A model generated the notes under the pieces. It was not told where the DNA came from. It saw only the letters and a list, made by a program, of their open reading frames with translations, and ran no database searches. Position numbers and translations under genes: made by a program. A DNA stretch of 8,550 bases from the NCBI GenBank assembly GCA_946402475.1, contig CAMIWP010000035.1, forward strand, positions 1-8,550, given 5' to 3'. Positions 1-8,550 of the stretch are shown in pieces. The first letter of the stretch is position 1, and every line of letters starts with the position of its first letter. The stretch comes from an uncultured Selenomonadaceae bacterium. GTDB lineage: Bacteria > Bacillota_C > Negativicutes > Selenomonadales > Selenomonadaceae.

Positions 1-541
1 TTTCCGCCGCCGTATGCATGGTAAAAGGAGTTGTGTTAGCATAGCGAAAAAATCCCGTATCCGTGGCGATGCCCGTGTAGATGCATGCAGCAGCTTCTAC
101 GGTGATTTCTCCTTCCATGGCGCGGATGATCTCATACATGATCTCTGCTGTGGCTGCACGATGGGAGTCCACATAGGCACGCTCCGCCTCACATTGATTC
201 GTCACATGGTGATCAATGTTCAAAACAGGGGCCTCTACCATCTTACCCACATCCCCGATACGATCCAGGGACGTGTCCAAAACCACCAAGAGATCCGCCC
301 GAATCTTCTCGACTCCATCCTTCCCCGGTTTCTCTATAACCTCATATCCCGGCAATACGGAAAATATTGCCGGGATATCATCATCAAGGAAGACCTGAAC
401 CTCTTTTCCCATGGCGTGAAGCACATGCATGAGACCCAAAGAGGAACCGACGGCATCGCCATCGGGATTCACATGAGCCGTGATCACCAGTCTTTTTGCA
501 TCCAGAAGGGCATCTGCCGCTTCCCTCAATGAAATCTTCAT
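1..541 (-). CDS. nrnA: DHH-family phosphoesterase, NrnA-like bifunctional oligoribonuclease/pAp phosphatase (3' end outside window)
   Basis: Cytoplasmic metal-dependent phosphoesterase. Family members degrade 2-5 nt RNA and dephosphorylate pAp. I translated 180 codons without a stop from ATG at 541 to the left edge. Visible motifs: motif I AHVNPDGD (residues 22-29, metal ligands H23, D27, D29), motif II VVLDTS (D89), the signature NIDHHVTN (D110-H111-H112) and TGIATDTGFFRY (D161), which together form the Mn-binding DHH domain. The family usually runs to about 310-340 residues, so the C-terminal DHHA1 substrate-binding domain should lie beyond the left edge. The start overlaps the rbfA stop in an ATGA, implying translational coupling. 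Location after rbfA is common in Firmicutes. A cyclic-dinucleotide phosphodiesterase (GdpP/DhhP type) is the alternative, but there are no membrane, PAS or GGDEF segments at the N-terminus, so NrnA is favoured. Confidence 0.9.
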   Translation of the reverse strand, partial: MKISLREAADALLDAKRLVITAHVNPDGDAVGSSLGLMHVLHAMGKEVQVFLDDDIPAIFSVLPGYEVIEKPGKDGVEKIRADLLVVLDTSLDRIGDVGKMVEAPVLNIDHHVTNQCEAERAYVDSHRAATAEIMYEIIRAMEGEITVEAAACIYTGIATDTGFFRYANTTPFTMHTAAE

Positions 542-903
542 ATCTCTTGTTCCTTCTCCTCCGCCTTTTGAACTTTCAGGAGCAATTCCTGTATATGTGC
601 GCTGTAATCAAGGGATTTGTCCAAGGCAAAAGAAATCTCCGGAGTAAATCGAAGGCGAATGCGTTTCCCGATTTCCCGTCGGATATAGCCGAGGGAGCTC
701 TGAAGTCCCTTCCAGCAGTCCTCCACTTGCTTCTCGTTCCCCATGAGACTGACGTAGACCTTTGCCTCGCGCAAATCCCCCGTGACCGTCACCTGTGTGA
801 CGGTCACGAAGCCAATGCGAGGATCTTTGAGCTCCCGAAGGATGATCTGGCTGATCTCTTGCTTCATGAGTTCCTGAAGTTTTTCTACGCGAAGCTGGCC
901 CAC
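538..903 (-). CDS. rbfA: 30S ribosome-binding factor A
   Basis: Small (121 aa) KH-type ribosome assembly factor that binds immature 30S subunits near the 16S rRNA 5' helix and helps in late maturation and cold adaptation (known family role). The sequence shows the whole fold: N-terminal helix with RVEKLQELMKQEIS (residues 5-18), LKDPRIGFVTVT (25-36), the strand AKVYVSL (47-53) and the terminal RIRLRFTPEISFALDKS (81-97). Length is normal. The start is GTG at 903-901, preceded by a strong AAAGGAGG with a 9-nt spacer. The gap to the infB stop is 21 nt, and the 3' end overlaps the nrnA start by 4 bp. The charged tail (residues 112-120) is usual for the family. Confidence 0.96.
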   Translation of the reverse strand: MGQLRVEKLQELMKQEISQIILRELKDPRIGFVTVTQVTVTGDLREAKVYVSLMGNEKQVEDCWKGLQSSLGYIRREIGKRIRLRFTPEISFALDKSLDYSAHIQELLLKVQKAEEKEQEI

Positions 904-924
904 AGATTCCCGCCTCCTTTCAAA

Positions 925-3462
925 TCATTCTGCATTCTGTGACTCCGTTTCACTGCTCCCCTTATCCTTTTGCTCCTCTTCCCTGCGCTTGGCAGCAGCC
1001 TTGTTTGCCTCGGTGATGGAGGTTTCGATCTCCTCCATGGTGTACGGTTCGATGATATCCCCTTCCCGGAAATCCCGGAAATCCACAATGGAAATGCCGC
1101 ACTCGTATCCGGCGGCAACCTCCTTCACCTCATCCTTGAACCGGCGCAGGGAATCGATTTCGCCGTCGAAGACCTCGATGTTATCCCGGATGATGCGGAT
1201 CTTGGAGTTGTTGAAGATCTTGCCGTCCAGGACATAGGAACCGGCTACCAAAGCCTTGGAGAACTTCATGACCTTGCGGATCTCCACATGGCCCTGAATG
1301 ACTTCCTTGTACTTCGGCGCAAGCATGCCAGACATGGCATCCTTCACATCGTTGAGGGCGTCGTAAATCACCCTGTAGGTACGAATGTCGATATTCTCGG
1401 CATCGGCCATGCGGCGGGCGTTGGCATCGGGCCGCACGTTGAAGGCAATGATGAGGGCATTGGAAGCCGAGGCCAACATGACATCGGACTCATTGACGGC
1501 GCCGACACCGGAATGAACGATGCTGACCCGCACCTCATCGTTTTTGTTGAGAGAAAGCAACGATCCGGTAAGAGCTTCCACGGAGCCTTGAACATCGGCC
1601 TTGATGACAATGTTGAGATCCTTGATGCTGCCCTCCTGGATTTGCTGGAAGAGATCGTCAAGGGAAACCTTCTTGGATTTCATGAGCTTCGTGCGCAAGC
1701 GTTCCGTCCGAGCCTCCGCAATGGAGCGAACCTGCTTCTCGTCCAGCACCGCCAGAAGATCCCCTGCCGCAGGCACGTCATTGAAGCCCAAAACCTCCAC
1801 GGGAACCGAGGGGCCCGCCTTCTTCACGCTGTCGCCGCGATCGTTGACCATGGCGCGAACCTTGCCGTAAGTGGTTCCCGCCACAATGGAGTCCCCAATG
1901 CGAAGGGTACCGCTCTGAACGAGAACCGTAGCCACAGGGCCGCGACCCTTGTCCAGCTCCGCCTCGATGATGACACCCCTCGCCTCCCGGTTCGGATTTG
2001 CCTTGAGCTCCTGCACCTCTGCTACCAGCAAGACCATTTCCAGAAGGTCGTTGATTCCCATCTTCTTCTTGGCCGAAACGGGCACCATGATGGTATCGCC
2101 GCCGTATTCTTCCGGCACGAGTCCCTTCTCCATGAGTTCCTGCTTCACCCTGTCAGGATTTGCTCCCGGTTTGTCAATCTTGTTGATGGCCACGATGATG
2201 GGCACATTGGCGGATTTCGCATGGTGAATGGCCTCCACCGTCTGGGGCATGACGCCGTCATCCGCCGCCACAACCAGAATGGCAATATCCGTCACTTGAG
2301 CCCCGCGAGCGCGCATGGCAGTGAACGCCTCATGGCCCGGAGTATCCAGAAAGACGATTTTCTTGTCCTTGCAGATGACCTGATAGGCGCCAATATGCTG
2401 GGTAATGCCCCCCGCCTCGTGAGCGGAAACCGAGGTCTTGCGAATGACATCCAAAAGGGAGGTCTTTCCGTGGTCGACATGGCCCATGACAGTGACCACG
2501 GGAGGACGAAGCTTCAGCGTCTTTGGATCGTCCTCGATTTCCGGGATCTCCGTCGGGTCAACCTCAGGCGGCAGTTCCTCGGCCGTCACCCCGAATTCCG
2601 AAGCCACGAGAGCCGCCGTGTCGAAGTCGATCTCCTGATTGATACTGGCCATGACTCCCATGAGCATGAGCTTCTTGATGACCTCCGCCGCAGTACAGCT
2701 CATCTTGCTAGCCAGATCCTTCACGGCGATGGACTCGCCGATCTTGATGTGCTTTGGGCGGGCGATCTCAACCTTCTGGGGCACCGGCTGGGCAACGCGC
2801 TTATTGCGGCGATCCTTGCGGCCTCCTCCCTGACGCTCGTTCCTGCCGTCGTTATGGCCTTCCTCTCTGACGTTGCGCCCGTTGCGATCCCGGCCTCCAC
2901 GATGGGCATTATTGCTGTCACGATTGCGACGATCCCTGTCCGTACGCGTGCTGCCGGTACCGACAGCACGTGCGCCGCCGCTCTTTCCCCTTCCGCTGTC
3001 CCCGCGAGGCGGCGCACTATGCTTAGACGCACTGTCGCTGCGATTCTGGGAGCGAACTTGACTGCTCCTGGCGCTGTTTCCGTCTCTGGCCGGACGATCC
3101 TTCGGCTTTGCATTTTCCTGCACCTTTCGCATGGAATCGGTGTTTTTTCCGGAAGAAATCTTTTCTTCCCGCAACTCTGCCGACTTCGGCACAGGCTGCT
3201 CCACAGGTTTCGCACTCTGAGGATCCTGCTTGGGAACAGGCTTCTGCGCCGGCTTAGACTCAGCCTTTCGAGGCGCTGCAACCGACTTGGAAGAAGCCGA
3301 TGTTTTCTTTTCCAATGCCTCCTTCACGGCATTGTATTCCTCATCGCCAACGCTGGTGAAATTATTTGCAACCTTGAAATTTTTTTTCTTCAGAATCTCC
3401 AGTACCGCCTTGCTCTCTATGTTGAGCTTTTTTGCCAACTCATAGACTCTGTATTTCGACAT
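925..3462 (-). CDS. infB: Translation initiation factor IF-2
   Basis: GTPase that delivers initiator fMet-tRNA to the 30S P site and promotes 50S joining. The 845 residues comprise: an IF2N helical domain (1-50, starting [14 protein letters not shown]); a long basic, low-complexity Arg/Gly/Asp/Asn/Ser linker (about 54-230); a second IF2N module (about 240-295); the G domain with G1 GHVDHGKT (327-334), G3 DTPGH (373-377), G4 NKID (427-430) and G5 SAK (463-465); domain II (about 493-580); domain III (about 610-710); and the C-terminal fMet-tRNA-binding barrel (about 715-810). The frame stays open upstream to 3564, but that part overlaps ylxQ. The ATG at 3462 fits the family N-terminus and follows a GGGGGTGG-type ribosome site, 13 nt after the ylxQ stop. 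The acidic Glu-rich tail (826-845) is not conserved. Confidence 0.98.
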
Positions 3463-3475
3463 CAATCCACCCCCA

Positions 3476-3799
3476 TCAAAATTTCCCTTTTTCCAGCAAT
3501 TTCGCCAATGCCTTACTGAATCCTTCATCTTGCAAGGCCGCCACCGCCCGATATTCTTTGCCAAGGCACTCTCCCAAAAGCTCCTTGGTCAGGCACAAGG
3601 AAAAAGGGATCCCGCATCTATCTGCCATTTCCTGATACGTCTTCTTGGATTCTTCCGCTGCATCCGTCGCCACTAAAAGATACTTCGCCTTTTTTCCTTT
3701 TACGGACTGTTCCACGGCAAAAGCTCCGGACACGATGCACCTTGCCCTCTGGGCCATGCTCAGAAGATTCCTGATCTTCCTGTCCAAAATCTCCATCAT
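3476..3799 (-). CDS. ylxQ: YlxQ, L7Ae/L30e/S12e-family putative RNA-binding protein
   Basis: A 107-aa protein of the L7Ae/L30e fold. Family members bind kink-turn-like RNA, but the exact cellular target of YlxQ is not established. Family-typical stretches are [10 protein letters not shown] (residues 11-20, where most homologues read LLGLA-RAG), the basic [17 protein letters not shown] (33-49) and a C-terminal helix containing [12 protein letters not shown] (91-102). It lies between rnpM and infB, as in Bacillus, with its ATG overlapping the rnpM stop (ATGA). A second ATG follows immediately and sits 8 nt rather than 5 nt after the GGAG sequence, so the true start may be 3 nt later (3796). Thirteen nucleotides separate its stop from infB. 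Confidence 0.88.
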
Positions 3800-4080
3800 C
3801 CCTTCTCCAGCGAAAGGATCTGTTGTTCCAGTTCATCATACACACTGCGATCGATGGCGTTCTTGAAGGATCTTTCCAGGCCTCGGCTCTTCCTCGCCGC
3901 CTCCAGGCACTCCCTCGTCCCGCATATATAGGTGCCTCGGCCGGGTTTCTTTCCCGTCGCATCTACGGAGTACTCTCCTTCCGGGCTTCGCACAATGCGG
4001 ATCATGTCCCGCTTTGGATGCTTCTCCTGACAGCCCACGCACATCCGCTCGGGAATTCTCTTCGCTGCCAAGTCATTCAC
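3796..4080 (-). CDS. rnpM: RnpM (formerly YlxR, DUF448), nucleic-acid-binding regulator
   Basis: Small basic protein of the YlxR family; the Bacillus protein is reported to bind RNase P RNA and modulate its activity. The 94 residues contain the hallmarks RMCVGC (12-17), [12 protein letters not shown] (24-35) and the signature GRGTYIC (47-53), followed by Cys58. C14, C17, C53 and C58 form a zinc-ligand-like set, although many homologues lack these cysteines. The start is uncertain. GTG at 4080 overlaps the end of nusA by 8 bp but has a weak ribosome site. TTG at 4071, three codons on, is preceded by AAGGTG at 6 nt and would give a more typical short N-terminus ([11 protein letters not shown]). 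The stop overlaps the ylxQ start. Confidence 0.9.
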
Positions 4081-5209
4081 CTTCTGCCGTAAAGGACTCG
4101 TCCCCGGTGACTTCCACCTCGTTCATGTTCTCGTCGAGAATCTCCTCCGCAGCCTGGGACTCGCTCTTGATATCGATTTTCCACCCGGTGAGCTTCGCGG
4201 CCAGTCGGGCGTTCTGCCCTTCTTTCCCTATGGCCAGGGACAACTGGTAATCGGGAACCACCACCCGGGATACCTTTTCCTCTTCGTTGACTGCCACAGA
4301 AACCACCTTCGCAGGACTCAGGGCGTTGGCGATATATTTGGCGGAATCCTCGTTCCACTTCACGATATCGATCTTCTCGCTGCCCAACTAGTCCACGATG
4401 GCCTGAACCCGGATGCCCTTCTGACCAGCGCAGGAGCCTACGGGATCCACGTTCTCATCCTTGGAGTACACCGCGATCTTGGAGCGCATACCGGATTCCC
4501 TGGCCACGGACTTAATCTCCACCGTCCCGTCCTGTATCTCGGGAACCTCCAGCTCGAACAGACGCTTCAATAGGCCCGGATGCGTACGGGAAACCACCAC
4601 CTGGGGTCCCTTGTTGGTTTTCTTGACCTCCACGATATAGGCTTTGATGCGATCCCCATGATTGTAAGTCTCCGTCGGGATCTGCTCCGTCGGAGTCAAA
4701 ACCGCCTCCGTCTTGCCCAAGTCGATGAAGACATTTCGGTTTTCCACGCGCTGCACTAGTCCTGTGATGATGTCGCCCTCCCGACTCATGAATTCCTCGT
4801 ATATGATGCCCCTCTCCGCTTCGCGGATGCGCTGTACCACCACCTGTTTCGCCGTCTGTGCCGCAATACGCCCAAAATTCGCCGGAGTGACCTCAATCTC
4901 TATGATATCTCCCACTTCGTACCCGGGACTGATGGATCTTGCCTGTGCCAGGGAGATCTCTGTGACATCGTTCCCCACTTCCTCCACCACGGTCTTAATG
5001 GCATATACATGATAGCTTCCCGTATCCCGGTTCAGCGCCACGCGGACATTCTGGGCAGAGCCGAAATTTCGCTTGTAGGCGGATATGAGCGCCGCCTCAA
5101 TGGCATCGAACAGGATCTCTGGGGCGATTCCCTTTTCCCTGCCCAATTCCTTCAAAGCTTCCAGGAAGCCTTGTCCTTCGTCTTTTGCCTTGCTCTTCTT
5201 GCTGGTCAA
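4073..5209 (-). CDS. nusA: Transcription elongation/termination factor NusA, interrupted by an in-frame amber codon
   Basis: NusA binds RNA polymerase and nascent RNA to control pausing, intrinsic termination and antitermination. Read through the stop, this locus encodes 378 codons, close to the about 371 aa usual in Firmicutes. Order: N-terminal RNAP-binding domain (about 12-140, from [15 protein letters not shown]), S1 domain (about 143-208), KH1 (about 210-285, loop GQKG 262-265) and KH2 (about 290-350, loop GKEG 328-331). Codon 274 is TAG (4390-4388), so the strict frames are 5209-4388 (273 aa) and 4387-4073. The C-terminal part stays in the same frame and is well conserved, and no ribosome site precedes the TTG after the stop. 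The chosen start is TTG at 5209, 8 nt after GGAGG and 16 nt after the rimP stop. The interruption is either a sequence error or a real nonsense mutation. Confidence 0.93.
4388..4390 (-). other. In-frame amber (TAG) codon inside nusA
   Basis: On the minus strand the codons read GAC-TAG-TTG-GGC, after IVD and before LGSEKIDIV. NusA homologues normally read IVDEL or IVNEL here. A single change, GAG to TAG (plus-strand c to a at 4390), explains the stop completely, with no frame change on either side. Confidence 0.95.
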
Positions 5210-5225
5210 ATTGACATCCTCCCAT

Positions 5226-5678
5226 TCAAAAATCAATGTGCAGGCGTACTTGGGAAATCTTGTCCATGGATATCTCCTGCCCGCCGTCCAAGGTGAGTTT
5301 TCCGTCGCCATAGGCCGTCAACGTCCCCACAAGGAGTTTCTTTCCGTCCATGGGAGTATAGAGGGAGACATCCACAGCCTTGCCCATCTCCCTCGAAAAA
5401 TCTCGCTCCTTCTTCAGCACGCGATCCAGACCGGGAGAGGAAACCTCCAGCGTATACGGATCCCGGATGAGATCGCGCCGATCCAACTCCTCCCCCAAGC
5501 GTTCGCTGAGATTCTGACAATCGTCGATTTCAATGCCGCCCTTCTTGTCGATGAAAACACGAAGATACCAGTCGCGCTCCTTGACGTATTCCACGTCTAC
5601 GAGTTCAATCTCCTCTTGGTCCTTCAGCAGCTCCGTCACGATTTCTTCCACGGTTTCCTCCACATGCCTTGCCGCCAT
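5226..5678 (-). CDS. rimP: Ribosome maturation factor RimP
   Basis: First gene of the operon. RimP binds the 30S head region and assists assembly of the S12/S5 neighbourhood (known family role). The 150 aa are normal length: an N-terminal alpha/beta domain (about 1-85) with VEYVKERDWYLRVFIDK (29-45) and IEIDDCQNLSERL (49-61), the family signature LEVSSPGLDR (77-86), then an SH3-like C-terminal domain (about 90-150) beginning KKERDFSREMGK and ending with a strand RLHIDF. The start is ATG at 5678, with AGAGAGGTG as the ribosome site a few bases upstream. It stops 16 nt before the nusA TTG start. Its promoter and leader hairpin lie at 5729-5808. Confidence 0.95.
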   Translation of the reverse strand: MAARHVEETVEEIVTELLKDQEEIELVDVEYVKERDWYLRVFIDKKGGIEIDDCQNLSERLGEELDRRDLIRDPYTLEVSSPGLDRVLKKERDFSREMGKAVDVSLYTPMDGKKLLVGTLTAYGDGKLTLDGGQEISMDKISQVRLHIDF

Positions 5679-5728
5679 ACAGCACCTCTCTTCCCAAAAC
5701 TGCCTGCAAATATTGCGGACATAAGAGT

Positions 5729-5754
5729 AAAGAGTGGGTTTGCACCCACTCTTT
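5729..5754 (-). promoter_or_regulatory. Perfect 11-bp hairpin in the rimP-nusA-infB leader
   Basis: An exact inverted repeat, AAAGAGTGGGT (minus strand) with its complement, closes a 4-nt loop that reads GCAA in the mRNA, a GNRA tetraloop. It begins about 20 nt after the predicted transcription start and ends about 50 nt before the rimP ATG. The 3' arm ends in CTCTTT followed by ACTCTTATG rather than a clean U-run, so it is not a canonical terminator. It could be an attenuator, a protein-binding site or a 5' stabilising stem. Confidence 0.6.
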
Positions 5755-5779
5755 GAATACCGACTTAAATTCAGTAATC

Positions 5780-5808
5780 ATTATATCACTCACAAGGAAT
5801 GTTGTAAA
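5780..5808 (-). promoter_or_regulatory. Sigma-A-type promoter for the rimP-nusA-infB operon
   Basis: On the minus strand, -35 TTTACA (5808-5803, 5 of 6 consensus), a 17-bp spacer and a perfect -10 TATAAT (5785-5780). The expected start is near 5773, giving a leader of about 95 nt before rimP. It is the only strong promoter seen upstream of the operon. Confidence 0.8.
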
Positions 5809-5852
5809 CCACTCCCGCAAAAATTAATAGGCCCCGCGCGCCCCATCGCCCT

Positions 5853-5884: not shown

Positions 5885-5913
5885 TTGAATAAGTTTTTCA
5901 TATTTGCTATAAT
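5885..5913 (+). promoter_or_regulatory. Promoter of tRNA-Pro
   Basis: -35 TTGAAT (5885-5890), a 17-bp spacer and a perfect -10 TATAAT (5908-5913). Predicted initiation near 5920 gives only about 8 nt of 5' leader before the mature tRNA end at 5928. Confidence 0.8.
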
Positions 5914-5927
5914 AGTTTTCGATTTAG

Positions 5928-6004
<77 letters not shown>

Positions 6005-6014
6005 TGGAAAATAA

Positions 6015-6062
6015 GAGGCGGATGCTTTGAGCAGTTGCTCTGGCATCCGCCTCATGATTTTT
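6015..6062 (+). terminator. Intrinsic terminator of tRNA-Pro, probably bidirectional
   Basis: Perfect 11-bp stem GAGGCGGATGC (6015-6025) with GCATCCGCCTC (6043-6053). Its apical part folds into a second small stem, GAGC/GCTC (6029-6032 with 6037-6040). On the plus strand it is followed by ATGATTTTT. On the minus strand the same stem is followed by TTATTTTCC, so it can also end the hpt transcript arriving from 6116. Confidence 0.8.
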
Positions 6063-6115
6063 CACAGTGCCGTCCTTGATGCTCATGAACAAGAACCCCC
6101 GCTCACAAACACGGT

Positions 6116-6457
6116 TCAGCACATAGCCAAAAGCTTGTCGCGCAGCTCCTTCACCGGCTTGTACATCTCCACGTATTCAGCCTCCTTGTGAGCGCGCAAC
6201 AGCTCCGTGATCTCCGACAGAGGCGCGTAGAGAGGTGTCAAGGCAAGGTTCCCCACCACGCCCTTCAATGCATGAGCCGCCTCAAATGCCTCCCCCTGTT
6301 TGTTTTCCGCCAGGGCCTTTTCTAATGTCTCGAAGTACTCATTGGACAGTCCCATGGCCAGCATTTTGAAATAGAATGCTTCATTGTTCATGCAACGGGC
6401 TAGTCCTTCCTTGGTATCGATCCCGAATTCCGTCAGGTTCTCGATCGTCAACATCAT
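6116..6457 (-). CDS. Single-domain HPt (histidine phosphotransfer) protein
   Basis: A 113-aa stand-alone HPt protein, a soluble phosphorelay intermediate that passes phosphoryl groups between a histidine kinase or hybrid receiver and a response regulator. The core motif AAHALKGVVGNLAL (60-73) contains the phosphorylatable His62, with the Lys and Gly residues that follow it in functional HPt domains. The N-terminal part (RCMNNEAFYFKML, 21-33) and the downstream PLSEITELLRA (79-89) complete the four-helix bundle. There are no membrane or catalytic domains. AAAGGGAGG precedes two adjacent ATGs (6457 and 6454); the second is 8 nt from GGAGG and is an equally good start. It is transcribed divergently from the REC-GGDEF gene, its likely phosphorylation partner. 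No kinase lies in the window. Confidence 0.9.
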   Translation of the reverse strand: MMLTIENLTEFGIDTKEGLARCMNNEAFYFKMLAMGLSNEYFETLEKALAENKQGEAFEAAHALKGVVGNLALTPLYAPLSEITELLRAHKEAEYVEMYKPVKELRDKLLAMC

Positions 6458-6505
6458 GATTTCCTCCCTTTGTCAACACATTTGATGATAGCAATCCGTT
6501 TATGA

Positions 6506-6534
6506 CTTATAGCATAACGAGTAGAAGATGTCCC
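6506..6534 (-). promoter_or_regulatory. Candidate promoter of the HPt gene
   Basis: On the minus strand: -35 GGGACA (6534-6529), a 17-bp spacer, and -10 TATAAG (6511-6506, 5 of 6). It lies about 50 bp upstream of the start codon. A short dyad, TTATG-N8-CATAA (6500-6517), overlaps the -10. The -35 is imperfect, so confidence is moderate. Confidence 0.5.
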
Positions 6535-6643
6535 CCATCCTCTACAAGTAGGGGCAGCCGTGCAAATGACAGGCAGGAGCGAATATCTCCCGCCTCTTTG
6601 CGACGCAAAGCCAGCCCCCTTTTTGGAAAACGCCAATGGGAAT
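6535..6643. promoter_or_regulatory. Dyad-rich divergent control region between the HPt and REC-GGDEF genes
   Basis: No coding potential was recognised. It holds consecutive dyads: CTAC-AA-GTAG (6542-6551); an imperfect hairpin with AGGC/GCCT and GGAG/CTCC arms around a 7-nt loop (6571-6595); a near-perfect palindrome, CTTTGCG-A-CGCAAAG (6596-6610); and TTGG-N6-CCAA (6623-6636). They could be regulator sites or RNA structure; the sequence does not decide between these. Confidence 0.4.
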
Positions 6644-6662
6644 ATTTCGCCTGTGGCGAAAT
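6644..6662. promoter_or_regulatory. Candidate operator: perfect 8-bp inverted repeat over the -35 region
   Basis: ATTTCGCC-TGT-GGCGAAAT is an exact dyad with a 3-bp centre. It overlaps the position where the -35 element of the REC-GGDEF promoter must lie (6654-6659), which is where a dimeric regulator would control access of RNA polymerase. The binding protein is unknown. Confidence 0.5.
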
Positions 6663-6682
6663 TTGAACAGTTGCGTTATAAT
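6654..6682 (+). promoter_or_regulatory. Candidate promoter of the REC-GGDEF gene
   Basis: A perfect -10 TATAAT at 6677-6682 lies 33 bp before the start codon. At 17-bp spacing the -35 is TGGCGA (6654-6659), a poor match, which suggests an activated or weak promoter. The short leader ends in AAGGAG (6700-6705), 9 nt before the ATG. Confidence 0.55.
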
Positions 6683-6714
6683 ATACGTAAGAGGCAAAGA
6701 AGGAGCGCGATGAA

Positions 6715-8028
6715 ATGAAAAAGATACTCGTTGTTGATGATATGATGGTTTCTCTCCTGATGACGGAGAACATCCTTGCCAGCCAATACGAAGTAGTCTG
6801 CGCCTCCTCCGGGAAGGAGGCCATCGAAGTATATCACCGCGAGCGCCCCGATATGGTTCTCTCAGACCTTCGCATGCCGGGGATGACGGGCTACGAGCTG
6901 CAACTTGCACTCCAATCCGAAACCCGAGAAACCATCCCTTTCATGTTCATGACCGCCGACCACGACGAGGAAACGGAAAGCAAGGGCTTCGACAACGGGG
7001 CCATGGATTTCATCCGCAAGCCTTTTCGCCCGGATGTTCTGTTGCGCCGAGTAGGGAATATCCTCCAGACCGTGGACCGCATCCAAGGGCTCAAAAAGCA
7101 TGCCAGCATTGATTCCCTAACGGGACTCCTGAACAAGAACTCATCGGAAAATGAACTCAAATCCGTTTGCAAGAGCGCCACGGGAGCCCTCCTCATGATC
7201 GATCTTGACAGCTTCAAGTTGGTCAATGACATCCACGGCCACTCCATGGGGGATAAGATCCTCATCAGCTTTGCCGACATCATACGCGCCGCCGTCCGTC
7301 CTGCCGACCTCATCGGACGCATGGGAGGGGACGAGTTCATCGCCTTCTGTCATGGCATGCTGGACGAAACCGGCATCGCCAATAAGTCGGAGTTCATCAA
7401 CCAAAGCCTGCTGAAAGCCGCCAAGGAACTCATGGGGGAAGATATGAACATTCCCTTGGGCGCATCCATCGGTTGCGTTTTCGTCCCCGCTGGAGGAACG
7501 GACTTTGCCGAACTGTACAAGAAGGCGGATAAAGCCCTTTACACGGTAAAGCAAAACGGCAAGCACGGATACAGCATCTTCAACGAGGAACAGGATGCCC
7601 GGGACAGCAACTCGGATGCGAACAATGCAGACATCTCCCATATCGAAATGATCCTGGGAGAGCGCAACCAAGGAGAGGGCGCATTGCAACTGCCCTTTGA
7701 AGGGTTCCGCGCCGTGTATCGTTATCTTCGGCGCACGTTGAAGATCTACGCCAAACCCGCCTGCATTCTCCTCTTGGCTCTGAATCGGTACGGGAATCCA
7801 ACCGTCACTCCCGCCGAAGCGGATGAACAGTTCCTCTCTACTCTTCGCTCCACCCTGCGCAAAGGCGACGTCATCACCCAGAACGGCAAGAATTTTATCG
7901 TCCTTCTCTCCAGCATTGAAATGGAGCATATTACTGCAGTATCCGACCGAATCCAGCAGAACTGGGAAAAGGCTCCTGCGGGAAGCTGCTATCTGTTCTC
8001 CTACGAATGGGCTATGATGGAGCCGTAA
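6715..8028 (+). CDS. Response regulator with diguanylate cyclase output (REC-GGDEF plus C-terminal degenerate GGDEF-like domain)
   Basis: A 437-aa cytoplasmic regulator. The REC domain (1-120) has acidic D8/D9, phospho-acceptor D51 in LSDLRMP, T80 and K102 in RKPF. The GGDEF domain (about 127-290) has DSLTGLLNK (133-141), metal ligand D163 in MIDLDSF, the intact active site GGDEF (204-208) and an intact inhibitory I-site RPAD (195-198), exactly five residues upstream. It should therefore condense two GTP to c-di-GMP with product inhibition. After a polar linker (about 291-325), residues about 345-437 resemble a second, inactive GGDEF fold (LRKGDVITQNGKNFIVLLSS, NGKNF in place of GGDEF). The ATG at 6715 follows AAGGAG by 9 nt; an out-of-frame ATG at 6710 ends after two codons. 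The adjacent divergent HPt gene is a plausible phosphodonor. Confidence 0.94.
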   Translation: MKKILVVDDMMVSLLMTENILASQYEVVCASSGKEAIEVYHRERPDMVLSDLRMPGMTGYELQLALQSETRETIPFMFMTADHDEETESKGFDNGAMDFIRKPFRPDVLLRRVGNILQTVDRIQGLKKHASIDSLTGLLNKNSSENELKSVCKSATGALLMIDLDSFKLVNDIHGHSMGDKILISFADIIRAAVRPADLIGRMGGDEFIAFCHGMLDETGIANKSEFINQSLLKAAKELMGEDMNIPLGASIGCVFVPAGGTDFAELYKKADKALYTVKQNGKHGYSIFNEEQDARDSNSDANNADISHIEMILGERNQGEGALQLPFEGFRAVYRYLRRTLKIYAKPACILLLALNRYGNPTVTPAEADEQFLSTLRSTLRKGDVITQNGKNFIVLLSSIEMEHITAVSDRIQQNWEKAPAGSCYLFSYEWAMMEP

Positions 8029-8117: not shown

Positions 8118-8550
8118 CTACAGAACGGTGAAAAAATCTTTGGAGTCATGATCCTCCACGATTTCCACCGTTCCTTTTGTTTTCGACAGTTCCTCCTCCA
8201 GACGGGCTTTCAGTCTCGCCACCACGGGAAATTCCGTGCCAAAGTGCCCTGCATCGATGACATGCATTCCCAGTTCCACCCCGTGCTGGGCATCGTGATA
8301 GCGCACATCTCCCGTAACATAAGCATCAGCCCCCAGAGATGCCGCCTTGCCGATGAATTCCGCCCCGCTGCCGCCACAGAGAGCAACCTTCTTCACGAGC
8401 CTGCTCCCGGCAAATGCCACGCGCACATGGGACACGGGAAGGGCCTGCCGAACTTGCAACGCAAATTCCTGGATGGTCAATGGCGAGAAAAGACTCCCCA
8501 TGCGGCCCATGCTCATTTCTCCCTCTTGGGACGATAGCACAAAAGGCTCC
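8118..8550 (-). CDS. Nif3/YqfO-family dinuclear metal-binding protein, C-terminal part (5' end outside window)
   Basis: The C-terminal 143 residues of a Nif3-like (DUF34) protein, a widespread family with a dinuclear metal centre; the cellular reaction is unsettled (GTP cyclohydrolase I type 2 is an old, poorly supported name). Visible signatures are MGRMGSLFSPLTIQEFA, VRVAFAGSRLVKKVALCGGSG, GADAYVTGDVRYHDAQ and the metal-ligand motif DAGHFGTE (His and Glu). The frame runs through the right edge without a start, reading EPFVLSSQEGEM, so the N-terminal metal-binding half, and any PII-like insert as in YqfO, lies outside. It ends with TAG at 8118-8120 after SKDFFTVL, a normal place for this family to stop. 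It is convergent with the REC-GGDEF gene. No clear terminator follows on the minus strand. Confidence 0.9.
   Translation of the reverse strand, partial: EPFVLSSQEGEMSMGRMGSLFSPLTIQEFALQVRQALPVSHVRVAFAGSRLVKKVALCGGSGAEFIGKAASLGADAYVTGDVRYHDAQHGVELGMHVIDAGHFGTEFPVVARLKARLEEELSKTKGTVEIVEDHDSKDFFTVL

Follow-up and report, generated by a model that had tools for sequence, protein, structure and literature searches.

An in-frame TAG codon in the conserved nusA gene of a Selenomonadaceae metagenome contig, possibly a single wrong consensus base

The window analysed here is a complete 8,550-bp metagenome contig of an uncultured Selenomonadaceae bacterium (CAMIWP010000035.1), and all positions are given in window numbering. 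Its minus strand carries genes in the order rimP-nusA-ylxR-ylxQ-infB-rbfA-nrnA, and the reading frame of nusA is interrupted by a TAG codon. The name nusA was assigned from Pfam; the other names follow the usual order of this operon. The parts of nusA are as follows:

4391..5209, minus strand: nusA codons 1-273, with a TTG start at 5209, encoding NusA_N, S1 and the first half of KH_5
4427..4429, minus strand: nusA codon 261, Ala (GCT), the private V261A change
4390-4388, minus strand: nusA codon 274, the in-frame TAG, found by translation
4073..4387, minus strand: nusA codons 275-378 and the TGA, encoding the rest of KH1 and KH2, with the frame open and conserved

Translation of the minus strand from 5209 to 4073 gave 273 residues ending in RVQAIVD, a stop, and then a further 104 residues followed by TGA (4075-4073), exactly the TAG at codon 274 and the 104 further open codons described in a first-pass annotation of this DNA. 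The codons flanking the TAG (e.g. 273 and 275) show ordinary synonymous divergence from relatives, and the codon found in the three nearest relatives is a single substitution away from it. The upstream piece matches NusA_N (156.5 bits), S1 (34.3 bits) and KH_5 (37.5 bits), and the downstream piece matches KH_5 (44.3 bits), all over the Pfam cut-offs. In the 69-position KH_5 model the upstream piece covers positions 2-35 and the downstream piece 40-68, placing the TAG inside the domain, which Pfam locates at residues 240-306 of the full-length relative P0002. A second KH domain lies downstream of the TAG, with KH_1 just over its cut-off at 315-371 of P0002; in the window's own downstream piece the matches to KH_1 and KH_NusA_C are both below cut-off. 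Residues 15-348 of P0002 align to solved NusA structures. The earlier placement of the TAG at the end of KH1, with KH2 downstream, agrees with the Pfam matches, in which KH1 is cut before its last part. A truncated product would be without an intact KH1 and without KH2. The window thus has NusA_N, S1 and KH_5 but, under the standard code, no uninterrupted chain through KH2. It resembles full-length Selenomonadaceae NusA in having the N-terminal domain, S1 and KH domains and in lying in the same operon as in the related loci L001, L002 and L003, and differs from it in the stop, which is missing at codon 274 of the relatives examined.

To see whether the stop is shared, the homologous codon was located by BLAST alignment to P0002 in 80 loci and 120 listed proteins. 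The site encodes Glu in all 80 loci and in 118 of the 119 listed proteins besides the window's own, the exception being Ala in P0020. Earlier pattern counts, which read fewer rows, agree (Glu in 25 of 80 loci, and later in 75 of 80 loci and 118 of 120 proteins), and the claim that the family has Glu here is borne out. Among 189 family genomes, nusA was matched exactly once in 181 and not at all in 8 (E 1e-30), and none of the rows listed for the 181 contains an internal stop. The comparison with sibling genomes that had been suggested therefore found no relative sharing the stop, which was seen in one contig only and not in two or more independent genomes. At 273 residues the window's truncated NusA (P0001) is the shortest of the 120 listed hits, the next having 333, while the 15 clusters of sibling proteins (P0002-P0011 and P0013-P0017), with identities of 89-97%, are all at least 378 residues long and have the Glu. 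At the DNA level the operon aligned best to L001, from the metagenome-assembled genome RUG14684 (G001), at 81-82% over two segments, 17-3070 and 3224-5823; L002 came next and then L003. Over NusA residues 1-273 the identity is 94% to L001, 92% to L002 and 89% to L003. A search for a second nusA copy had also been proposed as a check. Run on relatives, since the window's own genome lies outside the search, this check found a single nusA in each of the 181 matching family genomes, and one NusA_N match in each of the three genomes of the genus (G001, G002 and G003). As a separate observation, there are NusA C-terminal fragments (P0143, P0172, P0223, P0225 and P0233) that start with M near the same KH1 site and may come from interrupted or mis-called nusA genes elsewhere; P0223 and P0233 lie on contigs over 1 Mb.

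Selection on the two parts of the gene was estimated as the ratio of nonsynonymous to synonymous substitution rates (dN/dS) by Nei-Gojobori count against L001, L002 and L003, with synonymous sites near saturation. For codons 275-378, dN/dS between the window and these relatives was 0.013, 0.022 and 0.024 respectively, compared with 0.014-0.019 among the three intact relatives themselves. The values for the window's tail therefore match or slightly exceed those of the intact pairs and are far below 1; against L001 the tail has 38 synonymous codon differences and 1 nonsynonymous. Codons 1-273 gave 0.033-0.037 between the window and the relatives, and 0.027-0.040 among the relatives. Because the downstream part has both a KH_5 match and a low dN/dS, the interrupted frame is, judged by its sequence, beyond chance, and what follows the TAG is conserved NusA. 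By the same measure the tail has evolved as a NusA sequence over almost the entire time since these relatives separated from the window's lineage, and the TAG is datable no closer than very recent. The locus does not look like a decaying pseudogene, since neither relaxed selection nor further lesions were found and the frame is open to the TGA.

These observations are best explained, in our judgement, by one incorrect base in the consensus sequence of this one metagenome contig, to which we give a probability of roughly 55%; the odds of all readings weighed here are likewise judgements. The living organism would then most likely encode a full-length NusA like that of its relatives. What was observed directly is the TAG, the open and constrained frame beyond it, and its absence from every relative examined; from these we infer a fault in the base and not in the organism. 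The first-pass annotation had likewise preferred an error or a very recent event, and that part of its interpretation stands: the stop is unshared, the tail is under normal constraint and the other operon genes are open. A published survey of in-frame stops in bacteria expects a substantial fraction of them to be artefacts (PMC7918605). If the TAG is an error, the case is a caution only, in that one base makes gene callers output a truncated NusA.

The quality of the rest of the contig was assessed by counting private changes at conserved sites, meaning those with agreement among at least 97% of the other loci; 484 such sites were compared and 81 loci ranked. Several results from this and the protein comparison weigh against a consensus error. 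The window has private changes at 3 of the 484 sites (V261A in nusA, K8R and A50T in ylxR), it ranks 36th of 81 in private-change rate and no frameshift was seen, so that a true mutation could account equally well for one isolated substitution in a contig this clean. In addition, the P0001 cluster has 2 member sequences against 1 contig of 8,550 bases, the length of the window. For comparison, L001 has 1 private change, and L002 and L003 have none. An error-rich contig overall is unsupported by the same count and mid rank. V261A is the sole private change of nusA at conserved sites besides the TAG. It lies in the loop region of KH1, 13 codons upstream, at a site that is Val in 80 of 80 loci and 118 of the 119 other listed proteins (Gly in P0089). 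The two changes within 14 codons may mark a short, poor stretch of consensus, as an error would predict, or may be coincidence, and are weak evidence.

The same pair of changes can be read differently, V261A as an early relaxation within the same KH domain, if the TAG is a real, very recent and unfixed nonsense mutation in one strain, later lost or reverted. Since the tail is under normal constraint, any real event must be very recent. Such a strain would live on a shortened NusA (the N-terminal domain, S1 and part of KH1) or on a trickle of leaky full-length protein. We regard this as rather unlikely, though a serious alternative. It gains from the NusA C-terminal fragments with internal M starts, which come from other assemblies and in part from contigs longer than 1 Mb, and it loses from the lack of an interrupted nusA in any of the family genomes listed and of any visible relaxation of selection across the 104 tail codons. 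NusA is also essential or nearly so in model bacteria. A literature search for nusA truncation, at the level of listings, returned no case of an amber codon in nusA. Belinky et al. (2021, PMC7918605) report that in-frame stops with conserved flanks occur widely across bacterial genomes and persist only briefly; the window's stop resembles those in being single, with conserved flanks, dN/dS well below 1 and short persistence, and differs from them in being seen in one contig only and in a gene of the essential type. Passages on NusA in PMC8060035 concern depletion strains. If real, the mutation would be a natural test of how much NusA a bacterium needs.

A TAG inside an open and conserved frame also recalls the amber codons decoded as pyrrolysine in MtmB, MtbB and MttB of methanogens and some bacteria, and the family was searched for the machinery. 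The nearest relative, G001, has a complete cassette, consisting of tRNA-Pyl(CUA), both PylS subunits, PylB, PylC and PylD, located at 5969-18418 of L081 (G001 contig C37). PylB, PylC, PylD and the large PylS subunit are over NCBIfam cut-offs, and the small subunit is over its own. Of the corrinoid proteins on L081, one is over its cut-off and a second below; an AcsV/RamA-like protein is also present, below the cut-offs of those models. A TAG at position 196 of the 450-position profile interrupts the MtmB of G001, whose pieces match PF05369 at 1-195 and 197-450 and have no NCBIfam match. These genes make it very probable that at least one member of the genus decodes amber as an amino acid. PylS_Cterm (TIGR02367) was found over cut-off in 9 of the 189 family genomes (G001, G046, G120, G148, G178, G179, G180, G183 and G188), a spread that suggests gain and loss. 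By similarity tRNA-Pyl was found in 8 of the 189; ARAGORN found it in 5 of 8 stretches scanned, including G120, the ninth genome, which the similarity search had missed. The presence of pyrrolysine genes in several Selenomonadaceae means that TAG-interrupted genes in this family need a tRNA-Pyl check before they are dismissed as broken.

Decoding of the nusA TAG by tRNA-Pyl(CUA) or another suppressor tRNA would yield a full-length NusA, and the Ala of P0020 indicates that Glu is not strictly required at the site. Nevertheless, readthrough in the species of the window, though possible, is unsupported, and we consider it improbable. G002 and G003, of the same genus as G001 and of unstated completeness, have no PylS over cut-off, and no tRNA-Pyl was found in them. 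Among 120 listed relatives of the G001 PylS, one cluster is 99% identical (6 members, 2 contigs), the next best is 65% and none lies between. Because PylS identity falls from 99% to 65% while NusA has 15 clusters at 89-97%, no vertically inherited PylS of a sister species is seen, although the window's IF2 is 89% identical to that of G001; such a protein could be hidden by clustering at 90%. No internal stop appears in the nusA row of any of the nine PylS-bearing genomes, and in G001 (L001) codon 274 reads as Glu. The known pyrrolysine codons lie at conserved sites of methylamine methyltransferases, as described in PMC8318568 and PMC7593587, whereas here the gene is nusA and the TAG is not conserved in orthologues, Glu occupying the site in 80 of 80 loci. 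That the window's species itself carries the cassette and reads this TAG as pyrrolysine is very improbable. If it did, the making of full-length NusA, and through it termination and pausing across the genome, would hang on the supply of pyrrolysine and so on methylamine metabolism, and the 22nd amino acid would stand in a core transcription factor as a leak of the expanded code.

Amber usage in G001 was scored over 1,975,790 bases (41 contigs, whole or part), where TAG ends 240 of 1547 predicted genes (15.5%). A coding-like continuation was no commoner after TAG (9 of 240) than after TGA (34 of 848) or TAA (20 of 459), in a test of limited sensitivity whose list missed the true case MtmB within the searched stretch; an earlier scoring on a smaller G001 sample did list it. 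An open, coding-like continuation of at least 30 codons followed five of the TAG-ended genes. Four scanned pairs proved to be different neighbour genes (UvrB/UvrA, CheB/CheA, RuvA/RuvB and TrkA/AAA), leaving genome-wide amber reading in G001 unsupported, and the fifth continuation was 36 codons long. A consensus pattern for an ordinary CUA suppressor tRNA found none in G001, G002 or G003, which says little, as it also missed the G001 tRNA-Pyl. Of 9 natural gene ends checked in the window, one alone is TAG, that of the Nif3-like gene at 8118. That ending had been held to speak against reassignment; this part of the first-pass interpretation is weak, since G001 uses TAG both as a gene end and inside MtmB. 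IF2 was uninterrupted in nine of ten genomes examined (the three genus members plus seven further genomes with PylS, without G179). At G120:C14:199633-201675, in a PylS-bearing genome, there is an infB match with one internal TAA.

Finally, translation might stop at the TAG and restart at the adjoining TTG (4387), making the KH2 part a second protein. The TTG follows directly and the tail is open and conserved, as a split gene would require. However, 78 of 80 loci have Leu directly after site 274, which explains the TTG as a coding codon, and a split here would divide the KH_5 domain. Upstream of this TTG the best anti-Shine-Dalgarno match is 3 bases, not a good ribosome-binding site; by the same count the match is 4 for infB, 4 for ylxQ, 5 for nusA, 6 for rimP and 7 for rbfA, with none for ylxR. 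Such a restart is extremely improbable.

The other genes of the operon, whose names are assumed, are:

5226..5678, minus strand: presumably rimP by operon order; open frame with homologues in relatives
3796..4080, minus strand: presumably ylxR by operon order; open frame with homologues in relatives
3476..3799, minus strand: presumably ylxQ (L7Ae-like) by operon order; open frame with homologues in relatives
925..3462, minus strand: taken to be infB (IF2); open, 89% identical to the G001 match
538..903, minus strand: presumably rbfA by operon order; open
2..541, minus strand: taken to be an nrnA-like DHH protein; cut by the contig end

Past position 5823 of the window no relative locus aligns among the matches listed. 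At 6116-8028 Pfam identifies an Hpt-domain protein (minus strand) beside a response regulator-GGDEF protein (plus strand). An open reading frame at 5907-6122 lies antisense to tRNA-Pro(CGG) (5928-6004), and we take it to be a spurious frame of a kind often annotated.
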